64,000 nucleotides of DNA, from assembly GCF_900091475.1 (NCBI RefSeq), contig NZ_FMIB01000002.1, positions 3,100,001 through 3,164,000 on the forward strand, read 5' to 3'. How positions within the stretch are numbered: the first letter of the stretch is position 1; the number at the start of each line of letters is the position of its first letter. The stretch is from Micromonospora chersina. GTDB lineage: Bacteria > Actinomycetota > Actinomycetes > Mycobacteriales > Micromonosporaceae. The translations under genes and the position numbers were made by a program. Shown here in pieces: positions 45,154-64,000 of this stretch. The notes under the pieces were generated by a model that worked only from the letters and a program-made list of their open reading frames with translations, was not told where the DNA came from and ran no database searches.

Positions 45154-45303
45154 GCATCCTCCTCGATCGTTGACCGGTCACCCGAACGCTATTGGCGGCA
45201 CCGGCCCCCGCGGTGTCCCGCCCGGGCAGGTGGCGGTATCACGCCGAGGCGCCGAGCCGGACCACCGCGAGAATCCGGTGGTGCCGGGCGCATGAGTCAC
45301 GCC

Positions 45304-47801: not shown

Positions 47802-47882
47802 CAGGGGCCTCCTCGCCTGTCAATCGTCCAAATCGGCTTGAAGTTCAAGATGCCTGTGTGATGCGAACATCCAGGGAAATTG

Positions 47883-48131: not shown

Positions 48132-49294
48132 CGCCACGGGATCCGGTTCGGCAGGTGCAGGTGATCTGCGGGCACGCCGGCGGCGAGCAGCCGCAGCCGC
48201 GCACCGGCCAGCATCAGCGGGGGCCCGCAGACGTAGACGTGCTGACCGGGACGGTGGTGGTAGAGGCCGACGGTCAGCGCGTCGCCTTGCTCGGCCGGCT
48301 CCGCACAGAGGTCGTGGGAGAACGCCGGCACAATGCTCAGCCAGTCGTGGCGCAGCTTGTCGAGGGTGATCGCGTCGTACAGGCTCTCCACCGATCGGGC
48401 CCCGACGACCAGCGTGACCCGCCGGCCGCCCGGGGCCGCGGCGACCTGCTCGACCAGGGCGCGCAGCGGGGCCAGGCCGGTGCCGCCGGCGATCAGCAGC
48501 AGGTCCCGGCCTTCGCCCAGGTGCAGGCCGGCGTCCGCGGGTGGGCCGAGGTGTAGGAGTTCGCCGGGGCGTACCTCGCGGACCAGGCTGGTGGAGACGG
48601 CGCCGCCGCGGACCGCGCGGACATGCAGCTCGACCGTGCCGTCCGGGCGCGGCGCGTTCGCCGGGCAGTACCAGCGCCATCGGCCCGGGTGGCGCGGCGT
48701 GCAGACCGGCAGCGCCTGGCCGGGCCGCCAGAGCAGCCGCCGCCATGGCCGTACGGTGAGAACGCCGACGCCGTCGGCGGCCCGGTCGTGGTCGATGACC
48801 TCCGCCGGCCACCAGGCGGGGCCGTCCCCCGCGCGGCGGGCGGCCCGCTCGACTTCTCGCCACGGCACCCTGGTCCGCAGTACGTCGTCGATGACTCCCC
48901 CGTGCTCCGGTCGCAGGCCGTAGCGGCGGTATGCGCGGCCGAGCACGCTGAGCAGCGCCAGCTTGTTGGGTCGACTGTCCTCGCGCGTGAGCTGACGCAG
49001 CGTGGCCTCGACGAGCGGGCCGTCCCGCTCGGGTAGCAGGCCGGGACAGCGGTCCTCGACCTGTTCCCAGAAGGGCGGTCGGCTCACGGCTCCGGTCAGG
49101 TAGTCGGTGGCGCGGCGGTGCTGGGCCTCCGGCCAGCCGAGGTTCGGCAGTTCCTCCCCGGTGGTCAGCGTCCGCGCGACGTGCGCCTTCAGCCGGTCCC
49201 AGTCCACGCCCATCAGGTACGGGGACAGCTCGGCGTCAGCCGCAATGAGGCTGAGCCAGCGGGCGGCCACCTCTCGGAACTGCGCTTCCGTCAC
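48128..49294 (-). CDS. Globin-like plus FAD/NAD(P)H reductase fusion (flavohemoprotein-like)
   Basis: The 388-aa protein starts at GTG 49294-49292, overlapping the upstream stop (GTGA). Residues about 1-135 look like a globin-type helical domain (EVAARWLSLIAADAELSPYL, WDRLKAHVARTLTTGEELPN, EAQHRRATDYLTGAV). The C-terminal ferredoxin reductase part has an FAD region (RWYCPANAPRPDGTVELHVR), GELLHLGPPADAGLH, NAD motif LLLIAGGTGLAPLRALVEQV, SVESLYD and VYVCGPPLMLAGARLRL. This organisation is that of a nitric-oxide dioxygenase or oxygen-reducing flavohemoprotein, although heme ligation cannot be proven from sequence alone. Confidence 0.8.
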   Translation of the reverse strand: MTEAQFREVAARWLSLIAADAELSPYLMGVDWDRLKAHVARTLTTGEELPNLGWPEAQHRRATDYLTGAVSRPPFWEQVEDRCPGLLPERDGPLVEATLRQLTREDSRPNKLALLSVLGRAYRRYGLRPEHGGVIDDVLRTRVPWREVERAARRAGDGPAWWPAEVIDHDRAADGVGVLTVRPWRRLLWRPGQALPVCTPRHPGRWRWYCPANAPRPDGTVELHVRAVRGGAVSTSLVREVRPGELLHLGPPADAGLHLGEGRDLLLIAGGTGLAPLRALVEQVAAAPGGRRVTLVVGARSVESLYDAITLDKLRHDWLSIVPAFSHDLCAEPAEQGDALTVGLYHHRPGQHVYVCGPPLMLAGARLRLLAAGVPADHLHLPNRIPWR

Positions 49295-49512
49295 GCCGGG
49301 CCCCCGAGCTGGTCTGCCATAGGGCCGGCGGATTCGAGCGCTGCGTGGCCCCAGCATGCCCGACGGCACGGGTAGGGGCGGCGTTCGGTGCGGCAGAGCA
49401 GGGCGCGCGGCCAAGGCCAGGGCACGTTCACGCGGATCGCCCGGGAAGTGAGGGCCAACGCCTCGTCGATGACCGGGGCGAGCAGGGGAAAGTCGGCGAA
49501 TACGGTGGACAT
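49291..49512 (-). CDS. Small hypothetical protein, first gene of globin/FNR operon
   Basis: The 73-aa frame runs from the ATG at 49512-49510 (MSTVFADFPLLAPVIDEALA) to a TGA overlapping the next GTG. Three cysteines cluster in RALLCRTERRPYPCRRACWG, which might bind a metal or Fe-S. The GGAGG ribosome-binding site is about 10 bases from the ATG. The family was not recognised. The three genes 49512 to 47883 overlap by four bases each and form one operon. Confidence 0.65.
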   Translation of the reverse strand: MSTVFADFPLLAPVIDEALALTSRAIRVNVPWPWPRALLCRTERRPYPCRRACWGHAALESAGPMADQLGGPA

Positions 49513-49721
49513 AAATGGGCGCCTCCGGCCTAGTGGTGCGCGAAGTGGCGCCGGGGCGGGCGGGGGCGGTCGCCGTCGTTCGGGTCGACGGCGACCGGAG
49601 CCAGCACCCGCCCCGGGCCATGCGCCTAGCTTCGGCGGGCAGCTGACCTGGAACTACAGCGTCCGAGGAGCGTCAATGACGCAGAAATGAGGCGTCTGCG
49701 TACCCGCGGCATCGACGCACA

Positions 49722-49735
49722 GTCACTACAGTGAC
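49722..49735 (+). promoter_or_regulatory. Inverted repeat over the -10 of the XRE/flavoprotein operon
   Basis: GTCACT-AC-AGTGAC is a perfect inverted repeat (49722-49735). It contains TACAGT (49728-49733), a good -10 hexamer 25 bases before the GTG at 49759. A bound XRE dimer would occlude the promoter, suggesting autorepression. Confidence 0.6.
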
Positions 49736-49758
49736 GGCAGAACGGAGGGAGACCGGGC

Positions 49759-51006
49759 GTGGCTTTGAAGCGGCATCGGCTGTGTCAGCGACGAAAGGCC
49801 GTCGGCTACAGCCAGGAGCGCCTGGCCGGCCTCCTCGGTGTGGAACGGTCGACCGTTGTGCGCTGGGAAAACGCCGAGACGGACCCGCAGCCGTGGCATC
49901 GCAGCCGGATCGCCTCCGCCCTGGGCGTTACGCTCGAACAGCTCGACGACATGCTCGTCGACGTGTCGGTGGCAGCACATCGAGGGCAGGCCATGGGAGA
50001 TGAGAGCCGCGTTCCCGCTTCCGGCGCCACCCGTCCGGAGCTACTGAACGATCTCCGGGCTTTTCTCACCACCTACCTGGGGGCGCCGAACGAATCGGCG
50101 CAGTCGCCTGTCGAGGTACGGCGTGTTGTGGGCCGGGTGCACAACCTGTACCAGAGGGCGAGCTACACCTCCGCAGCGCGTCTCCTGCCGGACGTGCTCA
50201 ACCAGGCGACGGCCCTTACCACCAGCTCCACCGGGATGCATCGCGGCAGCGGCTGCCGCCTACTCTCTGCTGCCTACATCGCCGCATCCAAGCTAGCTGC
50301 CAAGGTCGGTGACGGCGATACTGCTCTGCTGACCGCCGATCGGGCGGCCACCGCGGCTCGGCTCGCGAGCGATCAGGCGTTGGCAGCCGTCGCGGCGTAT
50401 CAGGCAGCGTGCGGGCTGCTGCGACTGCCGGGGAGAAGAACCGAGGCTGAGCAGGTTGTGCTGGGCACGATCGATCGCCTGGCCGACGCCGGTCCGGGCG
50501 CTGATTCGGACCTGCTCTCCGCTCACGGCGCGTTGCTGCTTCTCGCTGCTGTGCTAGCGGCCGGGCAGGGCAACCCTCGGGCGGCGGGTCAGTTCCTGGC
50601 GCGGGCTGAAGGGCTGGCGACGGTGCTTGGCTCAGACCGCAACCGGTTGTGGACGGGGTTCGGTCCGACGAATGTCGTCATCCACGCAGTCTCCGCTGCC
50701 GTTCGGGCCGGCAACGCTGATCAAGCGCTGGAGATCGGGTCACAACTCGACACGTCGCGGATGCCCACGGTTTTGGTCGGTCGGCGGGCGCAGGTGCACG
50801 TCGATTTGGCGGCAGCGGCGGTGATGTCGTCCGGGGACAGGTCGGCGTCCGTCCTGCATTTGCTTGAAGCCGAGCGGGTGGCCGTCGAGGCGGTTCATGC
50901 GAATGTGCAGGCGCGGGCGCTGCTGCTCGACCTTCTAGCCAAGGAGCGACGAGCGGCAACGCCGGGGCTACGGCCGCTGGCGGAGCGGGCCGGGCTGCTG
51001 GCATGA
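49759..51006 (+). CDS. XRE helix-turn-helix regulator with TPR-like C-terminal region
   Basis: The 415-aa protein starts at GTG 49759 (ALKRHRLCQRRKAVGYSQER) after GGAGGGAG. The helix-turn-helix is GYSQERLAGLLGVERSTVVR WENAETDPQPWHRSRIASAL. From residue 110 on it is all-helical, TPR-like: RVHNLYQRASYTSAARLLPD, LAAVAAYQAACGLLRLPGRR, GNPRAAGQFLARAEGLATVL. Such proteins are common in actinomycetes next to a flavoprotein gene, as here (ATGA overlap at 51003). An inverted repeat on its -10 suggests autoregulation. The effector is unknown. Confidence 0.88.
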   Translation: MALKRHRLCQRRKAVGYSQERLAGLLGVERSTVVRWENAETDPQPWHRSRIASALGVTLEQLDDMLVDVSVAAHRGQAMGDESRVPASGATRPELLNDLRAFLTTYLGAPNESAQSPVEVRRVVGRVHNLYQRASYTSAARLLPDVLNQATALTTSSTGMHRGSGCRLLSAAYIAASKLAAKVGDGDTALLTADRAATAARLASDQALAAVAAYQAACGLLRLPGRRTEAEQVVLGTIDRLADAGPGADSDLLSAHGALLLLAAVLAAGQGNPRAAGQFLARAEGLATVLGSDRNRLWTGFGPTNVVIHAVSAAVRAGNADQALEIGSQLDTSRMPTVLVGRRAQVHVDLAAAAVMSSGDRSASVLHLLEAERVAVEAVHANVQARALLLDLLAKERRAATPGLRPLAERAGLLA

Positions 51007-51515
51007 CGCAGCGAGGCGTACTTGCTCTGATCATCTGTGCCGCTCCTCCCGTGCTGCGAATCGGTGAGTTGATCGAGCTGCTACATGAGGATGGATGGAC
51101 CGTCTGCCTCACTGCTACGCCGACCGCTGCAACGTGGATCGACCGAGAGGCGCTAGCCCGGCAGACGGGATATCCGGTGCGGGTGGAGTGGCGGATGCCG
51201 GGTGAGGCGGAGCCGCATCCGCCGGCGGATGCGGTCGCTGTAGTGCCGGCGACGTTCAATGTGATTAACAAATGGGCCCAGGGGATCAACGACGCGCTTG
51301 CCCTCGGCATCCTCAACGAAGCACTTGGCGCTGGCATCCCGGTGTACGCCTTCCCAAACGTCAAGGCGCAACTTGCCGCACATCCGAGCTACGACCGGCA
51401 CCTGAGACTGCTTGAGAGCGCCGGCGTCCGAGCAACACCCATGACCAGCGTTCCCAATTGGCAGATGATCGCGGATCGCGTCCGCCCGTACGACGCGAGG
51501 CCGCTGGACTTTTAA
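51003..51515 (+). CDS. HFCD-family flavoprotein (phosphopantothenoylcysteine decarboxylase-like)
   Basis: The 170-aa protein starts at ATG 51003 overlapping the regulator stop (ATGA). Flavoprotein-fold marks are RGVLALIICAAPPVLRIGEL, VCLTATPTAATWID, and ADAVAVVPATFNVINKWAQG followed by INDALALGILNEALGAGIPV: the PAxxN(x)(I/K)WxxGI(A/N)D segment of HFCD flavoproteins. The active-site His is not obvious. It is commonly paired with XRE/TPR regulators, but function is unknown. No membrane segment. Confidence 0.85.
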   Translation: MTQRGVLALIICAAPPVLRIGELIELLHEDGWTVCLTATPTAATWIDREALARQTGYPVRVEWRMPGEAEPHPPADAVAVVPATFNVINKWAQGINDALALGILNEALGAGIPVYAFPNVKAQLAAHPSYDRHLRLLESAGVRATPMTSVPNWQMIADRVRPYDARPLDF

Positions 51516-51697
51516 TACACAGCTTCTTTTGAATGCAAAGCGCTAAGGCACCCATGCTGCGGATAAGCCACACCCTGCCCCGCCATCCATTGCGGCTTCC
51601 GGGTGCTCATAGGGTTGCGGTTGTTTGCACGTTCCTTGGCAGCGGCGGCAATGGCCTCAACCAGATTGCTATCGAACCTCAGCCGCGGCGTTTGCAC
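51512..51697 (-). CDS. Possible small protein or gene remnant downstream of mcrC
   Basis: This is a 61-aa frame from the ATG at 51697 (MQTPRLRFDSNLVEAIAAAA) to a TAA at 51512. It reads as a plausible protein (KERANNRNPMSTRKPQWMAG, QGVAYPQHGCLSALHSKEAV) but has no recognised family and no good ribosome-binding site. It lies 61 bp after the mcrC stop and its end overlaps the flavoprotein stop by three bases, antisense. It could be a remnant of island DNA. Confidence 0.3.
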   Translation of the reverse strand: MQTPRLRFDSNLVEAIAAAAKERANNRNPMSTRKPQWMAGQGVAYPQHGCLSALHSKEAVY

Positions 51698-51758
51698 GGG
51701 CAGAGGCGCTGACTGCGCCCAGGCGACGAGTCAGCAAGCAACAGACGGCATTAACTCG

Positions 51759-52967
51759 TCAGCCAGCACGCATGCCTGGTTCGGCCATTTTTTCAGCAAG
51801 ATTGACGGCAAAGCTACGAAGATCGGCAAGGCTCGGCGTTGCAAGGTTCACGGTGCGTATCCGAATCGTCCTTCCGTTGAACTCGTACATGCTGTCGATC
51901 TGGTCCTCCATCTCTGGGTATACGAGTAAGCCATCACATCGAAGGGCAGCGCAGTAGGTTGCGAGCTGATAAAGGTGCTGGTTGCGTAGACGCTTCTTGC
52001 CGTACCTGAGCTCGAGGGCAGGAGCCCATTTGAGGTCGATTGCGAGTGCGGGAGTCCCTCGATAGCCAATGAGTAGATCCGGCCGGAGCGTGACTCTCAG
52101 TTTGGGATAACCGCCTTGCTGCACAAAGCGGTCAGCAAACTCAGGCTGTTCATGCACGTGCTGAATGCCCGCATCACGTAACGCCGAGGCTACAGCTGCC
52201 TCCCAAACCCGCCACATAGGAACGAAGTACGCCGGTGCGGTCGACGCGCCAACAGCATCATGCACGCCTGCCCCTTCGAGAGCGATCCGTGCCAGCCGGA
52301 GACTCGGCTGATAGTGGGCATTCAGCCGAGTCACCGCGACTCGATCGAAGGCCACCAGCGATGGCCGAACCAACGAGACACCAGCGAAAGCCGCGAGGGC
52401 GTCCCCCATGCGCCGGCGAACGATAGGGTTACTCGCAGCGGGTGCGAGAAATTCCAGGACGCCACGCAGCAGCCGGTTTTCTGCCGTGTCCGAAACGAAG
52501 TCGCTGTATTCACAATCAGCGAACGGGAGTCTAGCCGGGTTGAGCTGTGGCCGCAGCCGACCTCGGACGTAGGCGAGCAACTCGCGACGCTCGACGTACC
52601 CGCGGCGAAGCCCGCGTGAAAGCAGCTCCTCGATTTCACCAATTAATTGGAGAAGAAGCCAGTCTGTTGGTATGGCCTCGTCGATCGCCGCAGCACCTGC
52701 GGCCAGCGGAAGAGCCATGGCTCGGTAGGCCAACGCCAACAATTCGGGTAGATTGGAAATTGGAGCCTTCGGCATGACCACGATGCGCCGACCCGTCGGA
52801 AGCAGTACCGTGCCGGCGTATCCGATCCGCGGGCCCACCCGCACGCGGTCGTCACCCAATTCTTCGATACGCAGGCCATGGCGCGCTCTTCGAAGCGTGC
52901 GCAGCTCGGAAGGCGTCGCCGTGATTTCTCGGGGCGGGTCGAGCTCCGTGAATTCGAGATCAATCAT
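51759..52967 (-). CDS. mcrC: McrC-like subunit of McrBC-type restriction system
   Basis: The 402-aa protein starts at the ATG at 52967-52965 (MIDLEFTELDPPREITATPS), overlapping the mcrB stop (ATGA). N-terminal: RVGPRIGYAGTVLLPTGRRI and VVMPKAP, then YVERRELLAYVRGRLRPQLN and NRLLRGVLEFLA, typical of McrC. The PD-(D/E)xK nuclease site is visible: Pro296-Asp297 in TLRPDLLIGY and Asp311-x-Lys313 in AIDLKWAP, with a later Gln (HLYQLATYC). McrC stimulates McrB NTP hydrolysis and cuts DNA. Here it sits in AT-enriched island DNA. Confidence 0.9.
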   Translation of the reverse strand: MIDLEFTELDPPREITATPSELRTLRRARHGLRIEELGDDRVRVGPRIGYAGTVLLPTGRRIVVMPKAPISNLPELLALAYRAMALPLAAGAAAIDEAIPTDWLLLQLIGEIEELLSRGLRRGYVERRELLAYVRGRLRPQLNPARLPFADCEYSDFVSDTAENRLLRGVLEFLAPAASNPIVRRRMGDALAAFAGVSLVRPSLVAFDRVAVTRLNAHYQPSLRLARIALEGAGVHDAVGASTAPAYFVPMWRVWEAAVASALRDAGIQHVHEQPEFADRFVQQGGYPKLRVTLRPDLLIGYRGTPALAIDLKWAPALELRYGKKRLRNQHLYQLATYCAALRCDGLLVYPEMEDQIDSMYEFNGRTIRIRTVNLATPSLADLRSFAVNLAEKMAEPGMRAG

Positions 52968-54727
52968 AAGAGCGGACCCAGGAAAGCGTCCCGAAGCGCA
53001 GGGAGGTCGTCCTGGCGGCCGAGTAGATGGTCCCGCAGGACGGCCTCGAGATCCTCCATCCAAACTGCCTCGAAGCCTACCTGGGCCAGATCCTCCCGCA
53101 TCAGAAACGAATGGCCGATCGCTCGGTCGTCATCCAGAAGAGCGACTACCTGGGAATTGAGGCGTTTCAAGCGCTCCACCGCCTCCTTGCCCAGTTCAAC
53201 GCTGGTGCGCTTCTCGTGCCAGCGGAGCAGTGCGTCCAGGTCCACACCGAACCGAACCTCTTTGAACCGTCGACGCATTGCGGCATCCATCAGTGCGACT
53301 GAGCGATCTGCAGTGTTCATGGTGCCGATCAACCAAAGGTTCTCTGGCATGTAGATCTGTTCGCCGCTATAAGGCAATTCAATCTTGTTGTCCTCACCTC
53401 GGTACTCTAGGGCGAATAGCAGCTCGCCCAGGACGCGCGGCAAGTTTGCCCGGTTAATCTCATCGACGATCAGGAAGTGCGCGGCACCGGGGGCGTCAGT
53501 AGCGGCGGAGATGAGCCGCCGGAGCACGCCTTTATGGACCTTATACCTCAGTTCGGTGGCGGCCTCATCCAGGCGGGGACGTATGCCCTCGACAAAATCT
53601 TCATAAGCGTACGTCGGATGAAACTGGACCAACTTCACGCGTGTATCGCCGCCTAAAGCCCTGGCGAGAGCGCGTGCGGCGAGTGTCTTCCCGGTGCCCG
53701 GCGGTCCGGCAAACAGCAGCTGACGAGAGCGGCCGGCAAGCTCGACGAGCGCTCGTGCCCGTTCCTCTGCCCAGTGCAGTTCGGTTACAAGCACATGGGT
53801 GGGATCGTTTCCGATGTCATCGGCCGTCGCGATCGCGCGCAACGTCACGACAGTCAGCTGCTTGACCAGCTCACCAGCGTTATCCGTCGCAGCTAACGTT
53901 TCAGGATCTATATGCCGTCTCACTAGACCGCTGCTGGACGGCTCCGCAGCCATCGCGGCGATCCATTCCCCGGCAGTCGCGAACCGGGCCCCCGTTCCGT
54001 TGTCGGCCTCAAATATCCAATCGTCCGAAGCGAGGGACTCCAGTGGTACGCGGTCTTGGGCGGAAAGGGACGCGAGCTGCATGCGAACGCGTAGACGACT
54101 TTCTGATTCTTTGGCCTCGAGAGATTCCTCGTCCGCGGGTGCCAGTTGGAACATGAGGTCTAGTCCCTGACCGTCCAGACGAGCAATGACGCAGGAACGG
54201 GCCGGTTCCATGCCTGAGATGTACACGGTGAGAATCGGCTTATCGTCGTCGACGATCGCCGACACGGTTACTCCTTCATCCGCTGCAGCCCGCTTGGCTA
54301 GACGTCCGAGCAGCGCTAATCTCGCGCGGGCTTTTGCGAGCGCCGCCGTTTGGGCTGCGTCGAGTCCTCGCCTGTCGGCTGCTTGTAGAACGCGCCCGGC
54401 GAGTTCGCAATCGTCCGTGCTGAACCGGATCGAAAGCATACGTCTCATCTGACCGCTTAGAGTCCAGACCGTTGCTGTCTTCCCGGACCCCGTCGGACGC
54501 TTCCTCCCGGAATCTTCGAGCAGCCCGATGTTGACTAGCTCGTTCCGTCGCGGGCGGATGTTATTGAGACCGCCCGGCGCCTCCAGGATTTCCGAAAGCT
54601 CGTGATCCGTGGTCCCCTGCGCACGACGGTCGGCTACGACCATCAACGCCTTGTAAAGCCAGTTGTCCGGATTGCCCACCTGCGCGGGAAGGAGCTGGTC
54701 AGCTATCAGATCATCGAGGTCGGCCAT
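52964..54727 (-). CDS. mcrB: McrB-like AAA+ NTPase of McrBC-type restriction system
   Basis: The 587-aa protein starts at the ATG at 54727-54725. Residues 20-90 look like a winged helix (NWLYKALMVVADRRAQGTTD, HELSEILEAPGGLNNIRPRR). A helical middle follows, and the AAA+ module begins near 330: Walker A GPPGTGKT 341-348, FHPTYAYEDFVEGIRP, Walker B HFLIVDEINRANLPRVLGEL, and the McrB-specific MNTADRSVALMDAAMRRRFK. The N-terminal domain is not the E. coli McrB methylcytosine-binding domain, so target recognition may differ. It lies 3' of the m5C methyltransferase gene on the same strand (720-bp gap). Confidence 0.9.
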   Translation of the reverse strand: MADLDDLIADQLLPAQVGNPDNWLYKALMVVADRRAQGTTDHELSEILEAPGGLNNIRPRRNELVNIGLLEDSGRKRPTGSGKTATVWTLSGQMRRMLSIRFSTDDCELAGRVLQAADRRGLDAAQTAALAKARARLALLGRLAKRAAADEGVTVSAIVDDDKPILTVYISGMEPARSCVIARLDGQGLDLMFQLAPADEESLEAKESESRLRVRMQLASLSAQDRVPLESLASDDWIFEADNGTGARFATAGEWIAAMAAEPSSSGLVRRHIDPETLAATDNAGELVKQLTVVTLRAIATADDIGNDPTHVLVTELHWAEERARALVELAGRSRQLLFAGPPGTGKTLAARALARALGGDTRVKLVQFHPTYAYEDFVEGIRPRLDEAATELRYKVHKGVLRRLISAATDAPGAAHFLIVDEINRANLPRVLGELLFALEYRGEDNKIELPYSGEQIYMPENLWLIGTMNTADRSVALMDAAMRRRFKEVRFGVDLDALLRWHEKRTSVELGKEAVERLKRLNSQVVALLDDDRAIGHSFLMREDLAQVGFEAVWMEDLEAVLRDHLLGRQDDLPALRDAFLGPLL

Positions 54728-55447
54728 GCGGGGATCTTACCGTTCGTAGGCTTCAATTCGATCATCCAGGCACCGGCGCGAGGACTCCGGAACATCCTCA
54801 GTCGATCAAGGAGCGGACCACCGCGTGACCGCTCACAGGAGATTTCCGTCCCCTCAGTTGGCTGGCCAGGAGGCCTGACAGTTAGGCAGCGGTAGATGAC
54901 TGAGCAGGCCGTGGCGAGGCGAGCTTCGGGTGATCGTTTTTGCCCGGTAAGGGCGTGGCGTGCAGGCCACAAGTGAGCGCTCGGCGAGGGTGTCGGTCGT
55001 GACACAAAAAATCCCACGACTGTCTACCGGTCCCGCCTACCGCTGTCCACGACGACGCCGACAGTCAGCATCGCCATCCGCCGATACCTTACCCGTGCGG
55101 CGGTGGCGGTGGCGGTGGCGGTGGCGGTGGCGGAACCTACAACACCACACCGCAGCGGCGATCGGGCTGGCCGTGCTGCCACGCCAACGCCCCGCCGACC
55201 TGGCCGCGGCAAACCGCACCTACGCCCTTCGAGTTGACTATGTTGACCTTCACCGATCTTCAGAAGTACCCGCTGTGGATCTCCGCTGCCCCCACCGCCG
55301 GCCGCGCCGCCGATATCACCGCAGATTCGCCCGGCATCCCCGCCTACGCCCCACGACCCGACCGCCAGCCGTGACCTCGGCTTACCAACTCTGACGACCG
55401 ACCTGGCCCGACCCAGTGGCCGCGATGGATGGGGTATTGGCCGCCAC
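54728..55447. other. Non-coding island region
   Basis: No frame here has a convincing start, ribosome-binding site or family. It holds a CGGTGG hexanucleotide array (55101-55130). One plus-strand stretch (AAAIGLAVLPRQRPADLAAA, near 55160-55210) faintly recalls a LysR effector domain, but has no usable context. The promoter of mcrB is expected next to 54728. Confidence 0.5.
55101..55130. repeat. CGGTGG hexanucleotide microsatellite, five copies
   Basis: Five perfect tandem CGGTGG units followed by CGG. It is the only perfect short-unit microsatellite noted in the window. Loss or gain of a unit would not shift a frame, so any effect would be on spacing. Confidence 0.85.
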
Positions 55448-56566
55448 TCATTCCCACCTCAAAGGGTCAACGATCGCCTCGCCAAGCGCGCGTCCAAGGC
55501 GCGGCGGAACGGCGTTCGCTACTTGAAGTCGCTGGGAGGTGCTGACCCCTAAGAAATGGAATCTGTCAGGAAAGGACTGCAGTCGGGCGCCTTCTCTAGT
55601 CGTTAGGCCTCGATGCTGCGATGGGTGAATACAGCGCGTACCAGACGGCTTGCCCATGTTCTGCGTTACTGCAACTGCAGGGGCCCATGAAGCGAGTCGG
55701 CTGTATGAGTTGTGGAATCCGGATTTGGGCTGCAGGTGGTCTGGGATACTTCGCCTGTTGCCACCGTCAGGCACGTGGGAGATCGCCTCGACCAAGTAGG
55801 CCGGATGTTTTGAGGCGGCATGACCCTGAAGGGAGACTGAATCTTCTCGCATCTCTTTCTGGTAAGGGTTCTCAGGCTCGCGATCGTAATCGGTAGCGGA
55901 TTGTCCCGCCGTCAGGCGAGGGAGATCCCCAATCGCTTCGCCGACCGTGACATAGGTGTCTGGATCATGGCTTGCTGTAACGCCCAGGAACCTGCGTTCG
56001 AGATGCCCGACAAACACTACGCGTCGGCGCAACTGTGGCACGCCATGCTCCGCTGCCGTCAAGATAAACCATTGAACGGAATATCCGAGTTCTCTGAACG
56101 CTGTGGCGACCTCTTCCTCGAATGACATGTCCTTCAAGCCTAGAACATTTTCGAGGAGGAACCCGGATGGCTTCAATTCCGCCACAATACGGCGGAATTG
56201 CAGAAAGAGCTGGTTTCGGTCGTCCGTGCGCTGTCGTTTGCCGACAGTGGAGTAGCCCTGACACGGCGGTCCACCGACGACCCAATCAGGAACTTCCTCA
56301 AGGACTCGGGCCAGCCGCGGAGCGTCTAGCTCGTGAACATCACGACATTCAGCCAAGTGGTCGGGCATGTTCGCGCGATAGGTCTCAATTGCGTCTTTCC
56401 AGTAGTCCACCGCGTAGAGGGGCTTCCATCCTGCCTGGACAAGCCCCCATGAAAGGCCTCCAGCACCGGAGAATAGGTCAATGAAGGATGGGCCAACCAT
56501 GCGGAGGAGGGTACACGAGAGCTCCGACATTTCGACTGCACCGCTCCGTGACCGCGCGACAGCCAT
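55448..56566 (-). CDS. DNA (cytosine-5-)-methyltransferase
   Basis: The 372-aa protein starts at the ATG at 56566-56564, with GGGAGGG 11 bases upstream; internal ATGs at MSELSC and MVGPSF are possible. C5-MTase motifs in order: I DLFSGAGGLSWGL (30-42), IV GGPPCQGYST with catalytic Cys102, VI LLENVLGL (139-146), VIII PQLRRRVVFVG, the target-recognition region from about 215, and IX/X with RLQSFPDRFHF and QVANAVPPRLGRALGEAI. It methylates cytosine in an unknown sequence. Same strand as mcrBC; together they suggest a LlaJI/BsuMI-like restriction-modification system. Confidence 0.93.
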   Translation of the reverse strand: MAVARSRSGAVEMSELSCTLLRMVGPSFIDLFSGAGGLSWGLVQAGWKPLYAVDYWKDAIETYRANMPDHLAECRDVHELDAPRLARVLEEVPDWVVGGPPCQGYSTVGKRQRTDDRNQLFLQFRRIVAELKPSGFLLENVLGLKDMSFEEEVATAFRELGYSVQWFILTAAEHGVPQLRRRVVFVGHLERRFLGVTASHDPDTYVTVGEAIGDLPRLTAGQSATDYDREPENPYQKEMREDSVSLQGHAASKHPAYLVEAISHVPDGGNRRSIPDHLQPKSGFHNSYSRLASWAPAVAVTQNMGKPSGTRCIHPSQHRGLTTREGARLQSFPDRFHFLGVSTSQRLQVANAVPPRLGRALGEAIVDPLRWE

Positions 56567-57006
56567 CAGTAGACCAGCCCTCCCGAAAGCGGAACGTAGT
56601 TGCTAGATGACAGACAGTTGCGGAGCGGCACTCGTCACTCTAGGCCCGCAAGGTAAGCGGGTGGGGACAATCCCGACAGCAACGCTGACAGCATCCGCTC
56701 CGGATAAGGCGACACGTGCACTTGATCACTCGCGATCTGAACGAGCGGCTCCAGCACGTCGACTCCTCCTGACCCACGGAGCAGCTCGACCGTCGGCACC
56801 CGCGAGACCCTCCTTCGACACAATGCCGTCGGGCCCGCCGCGGCTCTCCAGGTCCCCACGACGACAGACTCACCTGTCAGATCCGGGCAACAAGCCTCTC
56901 GATAAGCTGTTACGCCGCCCGGGCGCCGCACATTCCACGGGCGCTCACCGAGCGCCTGCCGAGAGGCATGTCGTCAACGCCTGGAGCGAGCCGCGCTATT
57001 CTTCAA
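56567..57006. other. Intergenic region of defence island
   Basis: A 98-codon minus-strand frame (ATG near 56931; contains VELLRGSGGVDVLEPLVQIA and SDQVHVSPYPERMLSALLSG) is protein-like in places but has no ribosome-binding site or family, so it is not called. No terminator or RNA gene was seen. It spans the promoter of the methyltransferase gene. Confidence 0.4.
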
Positions 57007-57525
57007 TCACTCTAGAAGCAGCTCAAGGATCTTCCCGACAAAGACCGCAGCGCTCCTATGCTGTTCGACAATTTCTGAAACGGTCTTCTCGATAGTGAAG
57101 CTGGCGTAGTCTTGATGAACAAGCTGGTTCCTTAAAGAACCAAGTTCCATGAAATCGCGGACCGCCTGATCCAGTGTCGGATCGCCGCGCACAACTTCGA
57201 CGACGCGCGCTTTGAACTCTTCCCCAAAGAGGCCGAAGAACTTGTTTGCATTCCTTCGATCCCAATCAAAGAAACTGTGATACTGCCGAGAAATCGCCTT
57301 ATTTTTAACGAAGTTCACGGCAAGCGAGTGCCGTCCTGACACTTCCTTGAAGTAGCGTATTATCGCTTCACAAATACGGCTCTCCGCCTGGCTCGCCGAG
57401 GCTAGGAGGAGAACTTTGGGAAAGGTCCGCTCAAGAGTCGCGAGATAGGAGATCTCCTGCGCATCTCGTAAGTGATGGACGATTCTCTCATATTCGTCAT
57501 ACAAGGACTCGACCAAGTCCATCAT
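57007..57525 (-). CDS. HEPN-domain protein (RiboL-PSP-HEPN-like), probable RNase
   Basis: The 172-aa protein starts at the ATG at 57525-57523, overlapping the DUF262 stop by four bases (ATGA). It is all-helical: TFPKVLLLASASQAESRICE, AIIRYFKEVSGRHSLAVNFV, SRQYHSFFDWDRRNANKFFG, LFGEEFKARVVEVVRG. The HEPN catalytic motif Rx4H is intact: Arg132-Asn-Gln-Leu-Val-His137 in SLRNQLVHQDYA. HEPN proteins are metal-independent RNases used as toxins or effectors in defence. Base composition is much more AT-rich than the chromosome. Translational coupling makes it the obligate partner of the DUF262 protein. Confidence 0.85.
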   Translation of the reverse strand: MMDLVESLYDEYERIVHHLRDAQEISYLATLERTFPKVLLLASASQAESRICEAIIRYFKEVSGRHSLAVNFVKNKAISRQYHSFFDWDRRNANKFFGLFGEEFKARVVEVVRGDPTLDQAVRDFMELGSLRNQLVHQDYASFTIEKTVSEIVEQHRSAAVFVGKILELLLE

Positions 57526-58733
57526 TTACCCGCAGATTCAAGAATCGTCCGGGCAACGCGAAGCCTGCCCTTAACATTTTCAGTGTGAGTTGTGCGCTCG
57601 GAGGCGTAAGCCTGAAACTCTGAGTCGTCGCGTATCTGCATAACGAGCCGGGTGCTAAACACTACCGGGAAACCCTCATCGCGAAGACGACAAGCGGCCG
57701 CAAAAATGCTTTCAAAGAGGGGGACGCTAAACTTCTTCTGCCTAAGCCACGCATTGCGTTCAACGTTCTTGGCCTCGCTCAGGAACCAGTCAAGGTTGGA
57801 AAAGGCCGCAGACCTCTCGCTCTCTCCATATCTCTGCGCGTTATGAGAAAATCGATTAAGGAACCGCACCATCGACGGCGTGTACTCGTCTCCAAGGCGC
57901 CAGACTGCAAAAGCCCGCAGAAGTACCTCGATGTCCCGCATATGCAAGTCGGGTTCTCGTCGTCCAAGGAGAGCCCTCCATCGATCATCCAAATTCCATT
58001 TGAACAAGTCGTCATAAAAGCTTGAGTGATATAGGCTGGACCTGATCTCCTGCGGCGTCAGATTGACGCCACCTGTGTTTAGCCGATTGAACATCTCGTA
58101 AATTGACGACGTATCGTCCGACGGCCTGACCTGCTTGACAATGATATTACGGATAGTGCGCAGGTCGAACTGCATACGATACTCGCCAAGCGTCGAGTAT
58201 CTCAACTTGTTGAACCGATTCGGTCCACCCGGCCTTACCTCGGCCAGGCGGAGATCGAACGACTCGAAATAGTCATCGTCATGCAGGATGTCGTCGGGTA
58301 TCGTACCTGCGTCGCCGAAAATCTTCCGGATTTCGGACCTCCGCTCCTTTCGCGGGAAGCGCTCTTTCACGAAATAGTAGATCGTCATCAGCCGCTGCTG
58401 ACCATCGACGACCAAGAACCTGTTGCGATCTTCCTCGTAAAGGAACACCTGCGGAACCGGAAGCCCAATAATCAGAGACTCAATAAGTTTCGAGGCTCTT
58501 TTAATGTCCCAGACATAATTCCGCTGGAAGCCGGGTATCTTCACCGCCCCGGACTCGATGAAGCTGAAAATGGTTGACACATTGAAGTCATTCGGAGAGG
58601 AAGTTAGGTCGTACTCCTCGATCTGATCAGTCTCTTCGATCTCGATATCGCGCCACTCTTCCTCGACTGCGTCGTCAAACACAACCTCAGTCCTCTCCGA
58701 TTCTATCGCCGAGCCATTGCAGTCCGGGGTCAA
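57522..58733 (-). CDS. DUF262 (GmrS N-terminal-like) protein without HNH half
   Basis: The 403-aa protein starts at the ATG at 58733-58731. After an acidic N-terminus (VEEEWRDIEIEETDQIEEYD) the DUF262 core shows VKIPGFQRNYVWDIKRASKL, GLPVPQVFLYEEDRNRFLVV, and the signature Asp110-Gly-Gln-Gln-Arg114 in VDGQQRLMTIYY. SIYEMFNRLNTGGVNLTPQE IR is the conserved second block. The C-terminal half is helical and lacks the DUF1524 His-Asn-His nuclease motif of GmrSD enzymes. DUF262 is an NTP-using ParB-like domain. The missing nuclease may be replaced by the coupled HEPN protein. Strongly AT-enriched, a sign of transfer. Confidence 0.85.
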   Translation of the reverse strand: MTPDCNGSAIESERTEVVFDDAVEEEWRDIEIEETDQIEEYDLTSSPNDFNVSTIFSFIESGAVKIPGFQRNYVWDIKRASKLIESLIIGLPVPQVFLYEEDRNRFLVVDGQQRLMTIYYFVKERFPRKERRSEIRKIFGDAGTIPDDILHDDDYFESFDLRLAEVRPGGPNRFNKLRYSTLGEYRMQFDLRTIRNIIVKQVRPSDDTSSIYEMFNRLNTGGVNLTPQEIRSSLYHSSFYDDLFKWNLDDRWRALLGRREPDLHMRDIEVLLRAFAVWRLGDEYTPSMVRFLNRFSHNAQRYGESERSAAFSNLDWFLSEAKNVERNAWLRQKKFSVPLFESIFAAACRLRDEGFPVVFSTRLVMQIRDDSEFQAYASERTTHTENVKGRLRVARTILESAGK

Positions 58734-59158
58734 GCACGAACCGCTAGCTCGGCTAGCACTCGTCGACTTGCCTCTCCCAACGCGTCCTCGGACCCTACCT
58801 CCAAAGGCGAAGTAGCGGGGCCCCTGACCCTCATTAATGCGTGCCCCAGGGTCGCCTGACTAGCCGGTCACTTGTCAGGAATCCGACAGATAATCTGCGG
58901 TGCCGAGGCCACGACGGTCTCAAATGGTATTGCGAGGCTGGGCGCCAGAACGCGAAGGGATGCCAAGCTCACGGAATGCCCACAGGAGTTGAGTCGCGTT
59001 TAGACGCCGGCGCCAACGAGAGGCTCCATGCACGGCAGGCGTTGTCGGCCATGTCGGCGGAGACTCACAGACTGATAGCCGGCATGACCCTTGCCGCCAG
59101 ATGCCCCGGCACGCAAAATTCAGCCACTCAGCACGGCGCCGGCCCTTCACCGGCGGGT
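58734..59158. other. Non-coding right edge of the island
   Basis: No supported gene. A minus-strand stretch at about 58920-59030 (RRRLNATQLLWAFRELGIPS) vaguely recalls the tail of actinobacterial recombinase-like proteins, but is too short and broken to call. Base composition returns to the chromosomal norm here. No attachment-site repeat was identified. Confidence 0.4.
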
Positions 59159-59184
59159 GGCCGCCGACCCCCTGGTCGGCGGCC
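59159..59184 (-). terminator. 11-bp perfect hairpin after the M14 carboxypeptidase
   Basis: GGCCGCCGACC (59159-59169), loop CCCT, GGTCGGCGGCC (59174-59184). It lies 20 bp downstream of the carboxypeptidase stop (minus strand). No T-tract. Confidence 0.7.
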
Positions 59185-59203
59185 CCCAACCTCCAAGCGG
59201 TGG

Positions 59204-61645
59204 CTACTGGACCCTTACCCTCTGCCTGCTGTAGTTCGTACCTTCACCGTCCGGCTTGTAGTTGCTCTCCACGTTGCCGGCGATGTCGATCGAGAACCAG
59301 TTCACGGTGGTATCGCTGTTCACCGTGATGTTCTGGACCCCCTCACGCATCCCCGCCAGCGCCAGCTTGGCCGACCCGTACGTAGGCCGACTCCCGTCAA
59401 GCGTGTAGTACAGGTTCGCCGGCTCACTCGTGCTGAACGTGAACGCCGTAGCCCCCTGCTCCCGCTTGACGACCTGCAACGACGTCCGAGGCTGGGTCTT
59501 GTCCGTCGCGTACGCCCGGGCCACCTCAAGGATCGCGATGTTGCCGTTGGCAAACTCCATCGCCTCCTCATGCCCCTCGGCGAACGGCGGCTGGAACCCG
59601 ACGGCCGTGAACCGCCCGGTCGCCGGGTTGTAGATGTCCGCACCGACCTCGAAGTCCCAGCCGATGATGCCCCGGTTGTACCAGTGCTCGTCGGCGCTGT
59701 TGCCGGCCGCCGAGTACAGAACATCGGTCACCGGTCCGGTGCGGCCCGGCCAGATCGCCGTGCCCCGGTACTCCTGGACCCGGGAGAGGATGTAGTCGGA
59801 GGAGGTCCAGAAGTACGCCTCGGTGCCCTGATCCACCCGCGGCAGCACCTCCCGCCCCTCGGCCTTGTACGCCCCCGGCGGCCACATGAAGTACCCGCCG
59901 TAGGAGTGGGTGTTCATGGACAGCTTGATGTTGGGGAAGGTGTCGACCAGCCAGACCTCGTTGCGCGCCTCCGGCTCGGACAGCTCACTGGGCCCGGCGA
60001 ACGTGTCGCTGACGCAGTTGGTGGCCGACGCGCCGACATAGCCGTCGAAGACGGAGCCGACCGAGAAGTTCCGGTTGATGTCGACGCCCCAGGCGTTGCG
60101 GCGGGCGGGGTCGGCGTTGGACTCCGGGCAGTAGTTCGTCAGGTTTCGCCGCTGCATGTTGTAGTCGTACATGCTGTAGTGCGCGCCGTCGGGGTTGACG
60201 ACCGGGAGGATGAAGATGTCCAGGTCGTCGACGATCTTGCGGGTGTCCGGATCCTTGGCGTAGTTGCGCAGCAGCCGCTCGGCCGACTCCACGCAGACCA
60301 GCGGGGTCACCCACTCCCGGGCGTGCTCTTGGCAGTAGAGGAAGACGCCGACCTTCGAGCCGTCGCGGTGCTTGCCGATGCGCAGCACCTTCATCTGGAA
60401 CGGTTCGCGGGACACGCTCGCCGGCGCCTTCAGGTTGTCGGTCAGCTGGGTGACGGGAGCGGCGGCCATCACGCCGGCGCCGGCGTTGCCCCGGTAAGTG
60501 CTGGCGGTGAGCAGCTTGGCCGCGTCGGCGTTGCCGTTGACCGCGGCGACGACCTGCGCCGCCGTGCTGGTGATGGCACCGGAGCCGTCGGTGGCAAGAC
60601 GCACCGTGACGGCCTTGCCGGACACGCTCACCGTCAGCGGAGCGTTGGCCGTGCCCGGGTCGACCAGCGCCATGGTGATGTCGTTGCCGCCCTCGGAGCC
60701 GTACGCCGTCGAGGTGACGTAGAGGGTGCTCGCCGCGGCGGTGCCGAACTGCGCCTGCGCGTTGCGCCGATAGCCGTTCGTCTTGTACGGCAGGTCGATC
60801 AGCTCGGTCAGCTTCGGGAACTCCGCGGCCAGGCCGGTGAACCGCGCGGTGACCTCGGTCGGGTCCATGTAGTGGTCGACGAAGTCCGACACGTACGGGT
60901 GCTTGCCGGGGTCCTTGCGCGGGCTGCCGAGCCACTTCGCGACGTCGACCGTGGCCGAGCCGCCCTTGTTGCTGGTGATGGTGGCCCTGGCCGGCGCGGC
61001 GGTGACGGGGACCGGGTTGCTGAACCGGTGGTACATGTACTGGCCGGCGTCGGTGAACCGGGACATGGTGGCGGTGCCGCCGGAGCCGATCTCCGTGCCG
61101 GGTCCGCTGTCCCAGCTCGCCGTCAGCACCGTCGTCGAGTCGGTGCCGGCGCTCGACTTCACCTCGATGTTGAGGAAGAGCTGGTTGTCGAGGCTGGTGA
61201 ACCATTCGGCCCGCAGCACGGTCAGGGTGTCGGTGGTGGCGGTCGCCGCCGTCGCGGCCCGGATGGCGGCGGAGCGTTCGGCCATGTTCTGCGCGTAGTC
61301 GCTCTGGTCGGAGATGGCGTCCCGCACGTCGAAGCCCTTGTCGCGCAGCGCCCGGCTCTCCTCGGGGCTGAGGATGGCGTGCACCTCGATGCCGTTGTCG
61401 ACGGGCTTGACGTACTCGGCGAGGTCGACGCCGAGCTGGTGGAGGCGGTCGATGCCCGACTTGTCGGCCACGACGATGCGCATGAGGCCGACGCCGTTCT
61501 GTTCGCCGGTCGATGACCGGTCGGGGGCGACGGCGGCATCATTCGTCGGGCTGGCGAGGCTGGGTGCGCTGACGGCGAGCGCCAGCGGTAGGGCGAGCAG
61601 GGCCAGGAATCGGCGCGGGCGGTTGGATCTTCCTGTACTCCTCAT
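59204..61645 (-). CDS. Secreted M14 zinc carboxypeptidase
   Basis: The 813-aa protein starts at the ATG at 61645-61643 (MRSTGRSNRPRRFLALLALP) with GGAAGG upstream; the signal peptide ends near SLA-S. A pro-region precedes the M14 domain: YVSDFVDHYMDPTEVTARFT, zinc ligands His and Glu in YCQEHAREWVTP, DIFILPVVNPDGAHYS, VDINRNFS, third ligand in LSMNTHSYGGYFMWP, and catalytic Glu in GWDFEVG. It carries an insert (about 360-450) with IVNG-type beta structure. The C-terminal YYTLDGSRPTYGSAKL is a chitobiase/hexosaminidase C-terminal module. It probably degrades extracellular peptides. An 11-bp hairpin terminates it. Confidence 0.92.
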   Translation of the reverse strand: MRSTGRSNRPRRFLALLALPLALAVSAPSLASPTNDAAVAPDRSSTGEQNGVGLMRIVVADKSGIDRLHQLGVDLAEYVKPVDNGIEVHAILSPEESRALRDKGFDVRDAISDQSDYAQNMAERSAAIRAATAATATTDTLTVLRAEWFTSLDNQLFLNIEVKSSAGTDSTTVLTASWDSGPGTEIGSGGTATMSRFTDAGQYMYHRFSNPVPVTAAPARATITSNKGGSATVDVAKWLGSPRKDPGKHPYVSDFVDHYMDPTEVTARFTGLAAEFPKLTELIDLPYKTNGYRRNAQAQFGTAAASTLYVTSTAYGSEGGNDITMALVDPGTANAPLTVSVSGKAVTVRLATDGSGAITSTAAQVVAAVNGNADAAKLLTASTYRGNAGAGVMAAAPVTQLTDNLKAPASVSREPFQMKVLRIGKHRDGSKVGVFLYCQEHAREWVTPLVCVESAERLLRNYAKDPDTRKIVDDLDIFILPVVNPDGAHYSMYDYNMQRRNLTNYCPESNADPARRNAWGVDINRNFSVGSVFDGYVGASATNCVSDTFAGPSELSEPEARNEVWLVDTFPNIKLSMNTHSYGGYFMWPPGAYKAEGREVLPRVDQGTEAYFWTSSDYILSRVQEYRGTAIWPGRTGPVTDVLYSAAGNSADEHWYNRGIIGWDFEVGADIYNPATGRFTAVGFQPPFAEGHEEAMEFANGNIAILEVARAYATDKTQPRTSLQVVKREQGATAFTFSTSEPANLYYTLDGSRPTYGSAKLALAGMREGVQNITVNSDTTVNWFSIDIAGNVESNYKPDGEGTNYSRQRVRVQ

Positions 61646-61913
61646 GAGAGTCCTTCCGGCAAGCGATCCAGAAGGCCGCGCAGTCGAGGAGTCGGGGTAG
61701 GTCACCCCGGCTGCCGCAGCTACACACAGCGTCGTCGCCGTCTCACCATCAGTCAAGATCTATAGTGAGCCACGCTCACCCGGATTCGTCGACCCGGCGG
61801 CGGTAGCCGCACAACGCCGGCGCCAGCAGGTGAACAAGGGCGGCGGGCTGACTGGCCGGCCGTCCGCGCCCGGGGGGCACGGGGCGTCCGGCGCCGAGCT
61901 GTCAGCGCAACGG

Positions 61914-62818
61914 TCACCCAGTGATCGTCAGCTTTACCGGCAGGCCCTGCGTCACCTCCAGGACTGCCCGCTCCCCCAGCGGTCGCGACAGCTTGAGGGT
62001 GGCGGTGCGCTGCGCGCCGATGTCCGCGCATGCCTCGTCCTTGGCGTGCCGGTGCTCGATGACGATCACCACGACCGCCAGATCCGACTCGACCGCTTCG
62101 GCACTGTAGTCGGCCCCGCACGGCTCGCTGCCGGGGCCGGGCGCGCCGGTGAAGGTGACGGTCAGTTCGCTGCTCGCGGTCGTGGTGGTCGCCGACTCGA
62201 TCGCCAGCCCCGCATGTGGGTGATCGGCGTCCCAGGGCGGTGGGGTCACCCGGACGATGGCCGAGGGATCCACCGCCACCCGCGCCAGCCGCACGGTCGT
62301 TCCATCGAGGGTGTATTCCCACGCCGGGGCGGTCGCCGGGCCGCGGGTGGTCGGGACCGTCATGGTGGTGAGGCGAGCCCGGGTGATCTTGAGCGGCGCG
62401 CAGCCGGAACAGTCGCCCGTCCCCGCGGCGCGTAGCTGCACCAACGCCCCGTCCGCCGAGAGCACGGGCATGTCCTGACGGGTGCCGTTGGCCCAGACGA
62501 TGGTGCCGGCCTGCTGGGGCGCCCCGGGCAGCGTCGAGGCGGCCTCGACACGGCCGGCCGACAGGCTCTCCTTGTAGGACCCGTTCGCCGGCTCCCAGTC
62601 GCCGAGCTGGCGGGTCAGCTCCCCACCGGAACGAAGGGCGCACCTCCCGCGGCGCGAAACGCCTGGTCGTACCGGGTGAGGGCCTCGCCCGCCTGCTGGC
62701 GCAGCCCGTCGAGCGGCTCGACGGCCGGATTGTTCCCGGCGGCCCCACAACCGCCGAGCAGGGCGACGGCCGTGATCCAAGGAAGAATCCGGCCCCGACG
62801 GGTCCTCGCTGTCTCCAC
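61914..62818 (-). pseudogene. Lipoprotein gene broken by one frameshift, downstream of MMPL gene
   Basis: The N-terminal part (GTG 62818; a GTG at 62839 is possible) reads TARTRRGRILPWITAVALLG GCGAAG, giving a lipobox LLGGC. It then loses frame after FVPVG at a C4 run on the plus strand (62621-62624). One extra base restores GELTRQLGDWEPANGSYKES and a coherent 230-aa secreted domain (TIVWANGTRQDMPVLSADGA, DCSGCAPLKITRARLTTMTV, VIVIEHRHAKDEACADIGAQ) to the TGA at 61914. The family was not recognised. It lies 50 bp after the MMPL stop, so it is likely the co-exported or accessory lipoprotein. Sequencing error is a real alternative to true inactivation. Confidence 0.7.
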
Positions 62819-62868
62819 CTCCTTGAGACGCCCGCACACCGGTCCGGGTTGCACGCCCGCGCCGCCCG

Positions 62869-64000
62869 CTACACCTCCGCCACGCTCACCGGCTCGGGCG
62901 GGGCCTGCGGCCCGGTGACCCGCCGCTCGTCCCCGTGCCCCGGCCACCATGCCTTGTGCCCGATCAACGCCGTCAACGCCGGCACGAAGAACATCGACAT
63001 CACGAACGCCGACAGCACGATCCCGATGGCGACCGCGAACCCCATCTGCTGCAGGAACGAGATCGGCGCCAGCATCAGCACCCCGAAGGTCCCGGCCAGG
63101 ATGAGGCCGGCCGCGGCGACGGTCGGCCCGGCATGCTCCACGCCGATGGCGGCGGCCTGGTGCGGCTCGTTGCCCTCCCGGGCCTCCTCCCGCAGCCGGG
63201 CGATCATGAGGATGTTGTAGTCCGTCCCGATCGCCACCACGAAGAGGTACAGGATGATCGGCAACTGGAAGGTCACCCCGGGCTTGTCCTGGAGCCCCTG
63301 GAACAGGTAGACCGTCGCCCCCAGGGTCGCCGCGAAGTTGAGCAGCACCGCGATCACCAGGTAGATCGGCGCGACCAGGCTCCGGAGCAGCAGCGCGAGG
63401 ATGAGCGCGATGAGCCCCGCCGCCACCGGCAGGATCACCGACAGGTCCCGGTTGTTCGCCGAGTTGATGTCCGCGAAGATCGCGGTCGTTCCGCCGACCA
63501 GCGCCTTGGTGCCGGGTGGCGCCGCCTCGTGCACGGCGTCGCGCAGGTCGTCGCGGACAAGAGTGATGGCCTCGTTGGAGACCGGATTCTCGTTCAGCAG
63601 CAGGTTGACCCGGGCCACGCTCGGGTCGCTGGCCCGCTCCGGCGGCTGCACCCGGGCCACGCCCGGGGCCTTCGCGGCGGCCGCCGCGAAGTCGGTGACC
63701 TGCTGCTCGGTCAGCGGCGTGCCGTTGCCGGTGGTCAGGTAGACCTCGGTGGGGGCCAGGGCGCCGGCGGCGAACCCGCGCTGGAGGTCCTTGGCGGCCT
63801 TCGCCGACTCGGTGTCCTGCGGGAAGCCGGCGCTGAAGTCGTAGTCGGCCTTGTAGCTCAGCACGCCCGCGGCGAGCGCGACCAGCAGGGCGCCGGAGGC
63901 CGCCGCGACGAGCGCCGGTCGGCGTCCGACGGCGGTGCCGAGCCGCCGCGACAGGGTCGCCTTGGGGGTACGCTGCCACGCCTTTGACGGCCAGAACACG
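62869..64000 (-). CDS. MMPL-family RND transporter, C-terminal part (5' end outside window)
   Basis: The frame is open to the right edge and ends at 62869; only the last 377 residues are visible. A membrane segment at AAASGALLVALAAGVLSYKA starts the second repeat, then a porter-like domain, then a cluster of helices: ILPVAAGLIALILALLLRSL, APIYLVIAVLLNFAATLGAT, QLPIILYLFVVAIGTDYNIL, FGVLMLAPISFLQQMGFAVA and IGIVLSAFVMSMFFVPALTA. GTDYNILM is the proton-relay core of MMPL proteins. These export lipids, siderophores or antibiotics. The downstream lipoprotein (50 bp) is probably co-transcribed. Confidence 0.93.
   Translation of the reverse strand, partial: VFWPSKAWQRTPKATLSRRLGTAVGRRPALVAAASGALLVALAAGVLSYKADYDFSAGFPQDTESAKAAKDLQRGFAAGALAPTEVYLTTGNGTPLTEQQVTDFAAAAAKAPGVARVQPPERASDPSVARVNLLLNENPVSNEAITLVRDDLRDAVHEAAPPGTKALVGGTTAIFADINSANNRDLSVILPVAAGLIALILALLLRSLVAPIYLVIAVLLNFAATLGATVYLFQGLQDKPGVTFQLPIILYLFVVAIGTDYNILMIARLREEAREGNEPHQAAAIGVEHAGPTVAAAGLILAGTFGVLMLAPISFLQQMGFAVAIGIVLSAFVMSMFFVPALTALIGHKAWWPGHGDERRVTGPQAPPEPVSVAEV

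Follow-up and report, generated by a model that had tools for sequence, protein, structure and literature searches.

We examined a 64,000-nucleotide stretch of the genome of Micromonospora chersina (assembly GCF_900091475.1, 6.68 Mb; contig NZ_FMIB01000002.1, positions 3,100,001 to 3,164,000), here called the window, whose own numbering is used throughout. The subject is a pair of genes encoding a DUF262 protein and a HEPN protein, which a sequence-only reading had put forward as a possible undescribed RNase-based defence module. The features of the pair were as follows.

58733..57522, minus strand: DUF262 gene, a 403-amino-acid open frame from TTG 58733, without an HNH half.
58521..58526, minus strand: QR motif (Q70 R71), invariant in 40/40 aligned DUF262 rows.
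58392..58406, minus strand: DGQQR motif (D110-R114), invariant in 40/40 aligned DUF262 rows.
58077..58091, minus strand: FxxxN motif (F215-N219), with F215 and N219 invariant in 40/40 aligned DUF262 rows.
57522..57525, minus strand: 4-bp ATGA overlap, comprising the DUF262 stop and the HEPN start.
57525..57007, minus strand: HEPN gene, RiboL-PSP-type, 172 amino acids.
57115..57132, minus strand: RNQLVH motif (R132-H137), with R132, N133, and H137 invariant in 52/52 HEPN rows.

Both open reading frames (ORFs) were confirmed, and they share the bases 57522-57525, as the sequence-only reading had described. The database copy of the DUF262 protein (P0121) consists of 386 amino acids, a length consistent with initiation at GTG 58682; the gene is likely to start there rather than at TTG 58733. 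The DNA is indeed rich in AT, since the guanine-plus-cytosine (GC) content per kb was 0.52-0.55 at 57000-58999, against 0.67-0.76 in the flanks (45000-50999 and 59000-63999); across the remaining island (51000-56999) it was 0.57-0.65. An Rfam search of 51000-59300 gave no matches. A scan for promoters and terminators gave 3 and 3, compared with 1.1 and 2.4 in shuffled sequences, and its result was not used.

In the DUF262 protein, PF03235 (GmrSD_N) scored 111.8 bits (Pfam cut-off, 33.2). This was the sole Pfam match at E <= 1; accordingly, PF07510/DUF1524, the C-terminal HNH part of GmrSD, is absent, in agreement with the earlier claim. The protein was aligned with 39 relatives, taken from the best 120 of 5088 matches among 7997 candidates scored, and the DGQQR core that had been noticed from the letters was found intact in every row. 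The three motifs listed above are those named as highly conserved in DUF262 proteins in PMC12137116. The predicted structure had a mean predicted local distance difference test (pLDDT) score of 83, and its best VIA-align row was BrxU, residues 1-422 of 580. The model aligned with BrxU and DndI through the helical linker and ended before their HNH part. Foldseek gave no matches with this model at E <= 0.001, and the best E of the sequence profile against the PDB was 0.015. A hidden HNH domain was considered and rejected on the Pfam result together with the structural match that stops short of the BrxU and DndI ends; when 81 relatives were scanned with a loose motif, a single match appeared (L037), which looks like chance. 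By analogy, the DUF262 protein is probably an NTP (nucleoside triphosphate)-switch sensor with a ParB/Srx-like fold and a helical linker. The top PADLOC models for it were NsnA (1.9e-53) and PD-T4-2_A (2e-32).

The downstream protein matched PF18735 (RiboL-PSP-HEPN) with 54.7 bits (Pfam cut-off, 28.4), whereas no PADLOC model matched it at E <= 1. When it was aligned with 51 sequences out of the best 120 of 141 matches, K37, S45, E48, H83, F86, W88, F96, F100, G101, G129, R132, N133, and H137 were invariant in all 52 rows. The Rx4H motif claimed at Arg132-His137 was thus recovered as RNQLVH, and the protein carries both the family domain and the R-x4-H motif of HEPN RNases. Its predicted structure had a mean pLDDT of 95. 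HEPN toxins of MNT pairs were among the best structural rows, and rows for IKK and designed bundles were treated as helical-bundle background. Foldseek gave no matches with the HEPN model at E <= 0.001, and nothing relevant was obtained with the sequence profile against the PDB. The structural support for the HEPN fold, drawn from a model, is weak but consistent. Judging from its sequence, the HEPN protein is probably an RNase effector.

Subsequently, conservation of the pair was surveyed from the HEPN side by scanning contigs with the HEPN alignment, which gave 66 loci on genome contigs and 23 on viral contigs. A DUF262 gene lay directly upstream on the same strand in 62 of the 66 genome loci, so the sequence-only reading was right to expect conserved neighbours; a DUF262 partner was also present at 17 of the 23 viral loci. 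The spacing in the 62 genome pairs ranged from a 41-bp overlap to a 37-bp gap, except for three HEPN frames (L017, L020, and L046) that the ORF caller had extended farther upstream. The DUF262 frames of these pairs were 382-437 amino acids long and therefore too short for an HNH half. Loci counted as misses were L064 and L079, each located where a contig or stretch ends; L072 and L073, with a partial HEPN and no DUF262 match; L078, a 29-residue match; and L097-L101, 73-amino-acid weak matches. When phage locus L004 and plasmid locus L008 were added to the genome and viral-contig pairs, 81 pairs were obtained, of which 81 carried DGxQR and 80 carried RNxxxH. Furthermore, the distance matrices of the two proteins correlated over the 62 genome pairs (r 0.70, compared with 0.27 for the best of 2000 permutations); common ancestry and transfer can produce such a correlation, and so can physical contact.

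The search from the DUF262 side gave 18 phage records and 114 plasmid records with a match. Nine of these regions were opened, chosen mostly as the fullest matches and not as a random sample, and a HEPN gene recognised by annotation or Pfam stood beside the DUF262 gene in all nine; two of them, L007 and L012, look like one type. At E <= 1e-10, the DUF262 profile matched 12 of 396 actinobacterial genomes. A PF18735 HEPN follows the DUF262 gene in the window genome and in the four next-best genomes. As for the remaining seven, the gene is followed by an AAA_15 ATPase in L115 and by a 207-amino-acid ORF without a Pfam match in L116, while no HEPN was identified in the flanks of about 1.5 kb of L113, L114, L117, L118, and L119, whose neighbours were not Pfam-scanned. 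The HEPN profile matched only the window's own genome, both in the relatives' set (1/61 genomes, with 0/36 among the other genomes of the genus) and across the phylum (1/396); the pair is therefore accessory. In the labels of the DUF262 tree, the clade is represented under 17 phylum-level names and includes an ANME-2 archaeon, which is a metagenome-assembled genome, as are many loci of the clade.

Some individual loci are recorded here. At L115:1363-3245, the gene for a 385-amino-acid DUF262-profile protein, in which no DGxQR was found by pattern, is followed with a 4-bp overlap by an AAA_15-type ATPase gene, an arrangement like that of Menshen. In Akkermansia phage Chambord (L004:3827-6637), genes for a C5 methyltransferase, a DUF262 protein, and a HEPN protein stand in a row, and the first two overlap by 8 bp. 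In Peduovirus P24B2 (L006:140-3041), a DUF262 gene is followed by a HEPN gene of the MAE_28990 family (PF18737) and then by a DNA methyltransferase gene on the opposite strand.

The pair was then compared with published two-gene arrangements. In a review, PD-T4-2, a phage-tested system of E. coli, appears both with the DUF262 systems that lack DUF1524 and with those whose HEPN belongs to PF18735 (PMC10952713). Deletion of PD-T4-2 from its native strain greatly increased T4 plaquing, and systems selected with T4 generally protected against T2 and T6 too (Vassallo et al. 2022, PMC9519451). Earlier, a survey of HEPN proteins had entered 'Ribo L-PSP-HEPN' as active and in 'operon with ParB', and had also noted 'MAE_28990 ... 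In operon with a ParB nuclease and DNA methylase genes' (Anantharaman et al. 2013, PMC3710099). Because of the PD-T4-2 and 'operon with ParB' entries, the design of the pair is already known, and the earlier suggestion that it was undescribed does not hold. The window pair shares with the ParB operons a PF18735 HEPN with R-x4-H beside a ParB/DUF262 gene; the 2013 table entry, as far as the accessible text goes, differs in giving no clade, distribution, or tested function. In the open-licence text of two further surveys (PMC12839542 and PMC10853773), HEPN and ParB appear in BREX and Dnd settings and the pair is not described.

The likeness to PD-T4-2 lies in the match of the DUF262 protein to PD-T4-2_A, a model that matched 40/40 DUF262 alignment rows at E <= 1e-5 (PADLOC's own thresholds not being applied), and in a HEPN partner of the same Pfam family. 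In contrast, PD-T4-2_B did not match the window HEPN at E <= 1. It matched 4 of the 52 HEPN rows of the window type at E <= 0.01, which has a practical side, in that the second-gene model of PADLOC-DB 2.0.0 overlooks most of these rows. Over the 396 phylum genomes it gave one match (G440, 5e-4), not in the window genome, and among the controls 1/14 was matched (Bacteroides ihuae). In a P2-type prophage of E. coli (L104:2964-6827), the genes for the CI repressor and the integrase flank a DUF262-HEPN pair that matched PD-T4-2_A at 1.8e-55 and PD-T4-2_B at 1.4e-8. When the window families were compared as profiles with PD-T4-2-like sets, which were small (5 DUF262 rows and 4 HEPN rows), the E values were 8e-66 for DUF262 and 1e-6 for HEPN, and E48 and RNxxxH lined up between the two HEPN profiles. 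In the DUF262 tree, which has several long branches among its outer rows, 65 window-type sequences stood apart from L104 and L009, the latter a relative of L104 on a plasmid, with a Shimodaira-Hasegawa-like approximate likelihood ratio test (SH-aLRT) value of 88, below the 95 mark. A search of phages and viral contigs for closer PD-T4-2 copies turned up DUF262 together with PF18735 genes at three viral loci, which were not PADLOC-scanned. In view of the mostly silent PD-T4-2_B model and the separation in the tree, we class the window pair as a divergent variant built on the PD-T4-2 plan rather than as PD-T4-2 itself.

Three further genes of the island follow the pair on the same strand.

55448..56566, minus strand: C5-cytosine DNA methyltransferase (Dcm), PF00145 at 211 bits, separated from the pair by a 440-bp gap.
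52964..54727, minus strand: McrB-like AAA ATPase, AAA_5 at 3.5e-20 and NCBIfam McrB at 1.9e-35, below the model cut-off.
51759..53063, minus strand: McrC-like protein, PF10117 at 131.5 bits.

In its layout, this cluster (51759-56566) is reminiscent of LlaJI-type restriction-modification. The three genes are treated as island context and not as established parts of the module. Neighbouring ORFs of the clade were called and Pfam-scanned, 102 of 114 upstream and 102 of 112 downstream. PF00145 was the commonest upstream family (8/102), followed by HAD hydrolases (4/102), and downstream no family exceeded 2/102. A BLAST search with the window Dcm found a methyltransferase in the fetched stretch for 8 of the 62 genome pairs, in one case on the opposite strand. 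A methyltransferase as an obligate third component of the clade was considered and rejected on the PF00145 count.

Genes flanking the island were also found in a genome of the same genus (G022, C1:1291000-1326000; L135 and L136), with 80% and 91% identity. They lie 29.7 kb apart there, against 8.2 kb in the window genome, and 9 of 10 scanned proteins of the G022 insert matched models (DpdB twice, C, D, E, F, G, H, and J) of Dpd, a 7-deazapurine DNA modification and restriction system. Since the same flanks enclose Dpd in one genome and the island of the pair in the other, the site holds differing defence cargoes and, on evidence from two genomes, is a defence hotspot. Elsewhere in the window genome, a second DUF262 protein (G000:C2:1145551-1146213; L002:1-2187, minus strand), judged from the first 729 of its 863 amino acids, carries PF07510 HNH (88.9 bits) and, further on, a 6-O-methylguanine-methyltransferase DNA-binding domain (PF01035) that is borderline, its 27.0 bits lying at the cut-off.

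GmrSD-family DUF262 proteins are thought to sense modified DNA, with NTP hydrolysis controlling the nuclease (PMC10952713, PMC11411939, PMC12137116, and PMC11662687). As the pair has the same sensor half with a HEPN in the place of HNH, NTP-gated RNA cleavage on infection is the most economical reading. With moderate confidence, we regard the two genes as an anti-phage module akin to PD-T4-2, in which a separate HEPN protein replaces the HNH half of a GmrSD-family enzyme and the sensor half, with its ParB-like NTP pocket and helical linker, is retained; the arrangement of sensor and HEPN effector proposed earlier thus remains the best reading. The DUF262 protein would bind NTP and keep its HEPN partner in check. 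By analogy with BrxU, SspE, and DndI, a sign of infection, for which modified phage DNA is the likeliest candidate, would trigger NTP hydrolysis and a change of shape. The HEPN protein, probably dimeric, would then cut RNA through Arg132 and His137, as its family and motif suggest, and the phage, perhaps with the host, would be stopped. The sensor step is modelled on family members and the RNase step on family and motif, while the trigger is suggested by analogy alone. The cytosines of T4 are modified, and the selection of PD-T4-2 with T4 is compatible with modification sensing, though not proof of it. More tentatively, and with the balance leaning against it, the clade may be a subtype within a widespread branch of immunity that depends on DNA modification. 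In such a branch, a GmrS-type sensor of modified DNA would activate a separate HEPN RNase rather than cut DNA, so that recognition in the style of type IV systems would lead to abortive RNA cleavage. The marks of the subtype would be the invariant H83, W88, and F100-G101 in the HEPN protein and a longer DUF262 stretch at about 131-170.

Other explanations were weighed against this module. The pair might be a plain toxin-antitoxin unit, in which DUF262 does no more than counteract the HEPN RNase and keep the island in place, with defence secondary or absent. An upstream partner joined to a small HEPN gene by a 4-bp overlap resembles such units, HEPN toxins of MNT pairs are among the best structural rows, and related pairs occur on plasmids and in phages or prophages. 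However, three NTPase-sensor motifs are invariant in DUF262, which is beyond what a mere inhibitor would seem to require, and the tested relative PD-T4-2 was protective against T4 (PMC9519451); we therefore consider this explanation unlikely. It is also very unlikely, in our estimate, that DNA is the target, with the HEPN protein as a structural or DNA-cutting partner in ordinary type IV restriction. Although GmrSD, BrxU, TgvAB, and GrwAB hit modified DNA, they do so via a DNase half (PMC10952713, PMC11411939, and PMC12137116). In the window pair, neither protein has a Pfam match to HNH or another DNase, and the near-universal RNxxxH is as expected of HEPN RNases.

PrrC guards a type I host restriction system, and the HEPN protein could similarly be a guard of the adjoining methyltransferase/McrBC-like locus, released once that restriction system is inhibited. 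The Dcm, McrB-like, and McrC-like genes are indeed next on the same strand, PF00145 leads the upstream families, and a methyltransferase gene overlaps the DUF262 gene in Chambord. Nevertheless, the Dcm-type methyltransferase accompanies few of the genome pairs, 440 bp separate it from the pair in the window, and the other neighbour families are scarcer still; such a guard role is improbable.

The architecture is already in print, yet without a mechanism in the open-licence parts of the published accounts examined. If modified DNA does gate an RNase, a single module of two genes would combine the recognition of type IV systems with abortive infection. With GmrSD, BrxU, SspE, DndI, TgvAB, and GrwAB, the pair shares a DUF262 part with QR, DGQQR, and FxxxN, and with BrxU and DndI also the predicted-structure match through the helical linker. 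Those systems have a DUF1524 HNH nuclease (PMC10952713, PMC12137116, PMC11411939, and PMC11662687), whereas a HEPN protein is present here; PF07510 was not among the listed Pfam matches of the pair, the Dcm, the McrB-like protein (25 of 30 families shown), or the McrC-like protein. HEPN-MNT toxin-antitoxin systems likewise have a HEPN fold in a two-gene unit, but the partner is a nucleotidyltransferase there and DUF262 here.

Menshen (NsnABC) resembles the pair in having a DUF262 protein without DUF1524, and NsnA was the top PADLOC model for the window protein; its DUF262 gene, however, accompanies a predicted OLD nuclease (PMC10952713). Neither NsnB nor NsnC was recognised beside the pair by Pfam or PADLOC. 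In the whole genome, NsnB matched only two short stretches elsewhere, and it also matched 14/14 controls, while the NsnC search was silent, as were its controls. An identification with Menshen was considered and rejected: NsnA outscores PD-T4-2_A on the E. coli prophage pair too, so its ranking does not discriminate, and no NsnC match was obtained, with controls equally silent. As an example of effector swapping among DUF262 proteins, the pair is simple and open to testing: the DUF262 sensor half stands beside HNH in GmrSD, a predicted OLD nuclease in Menshen (PMC10952713), and HEPN here.
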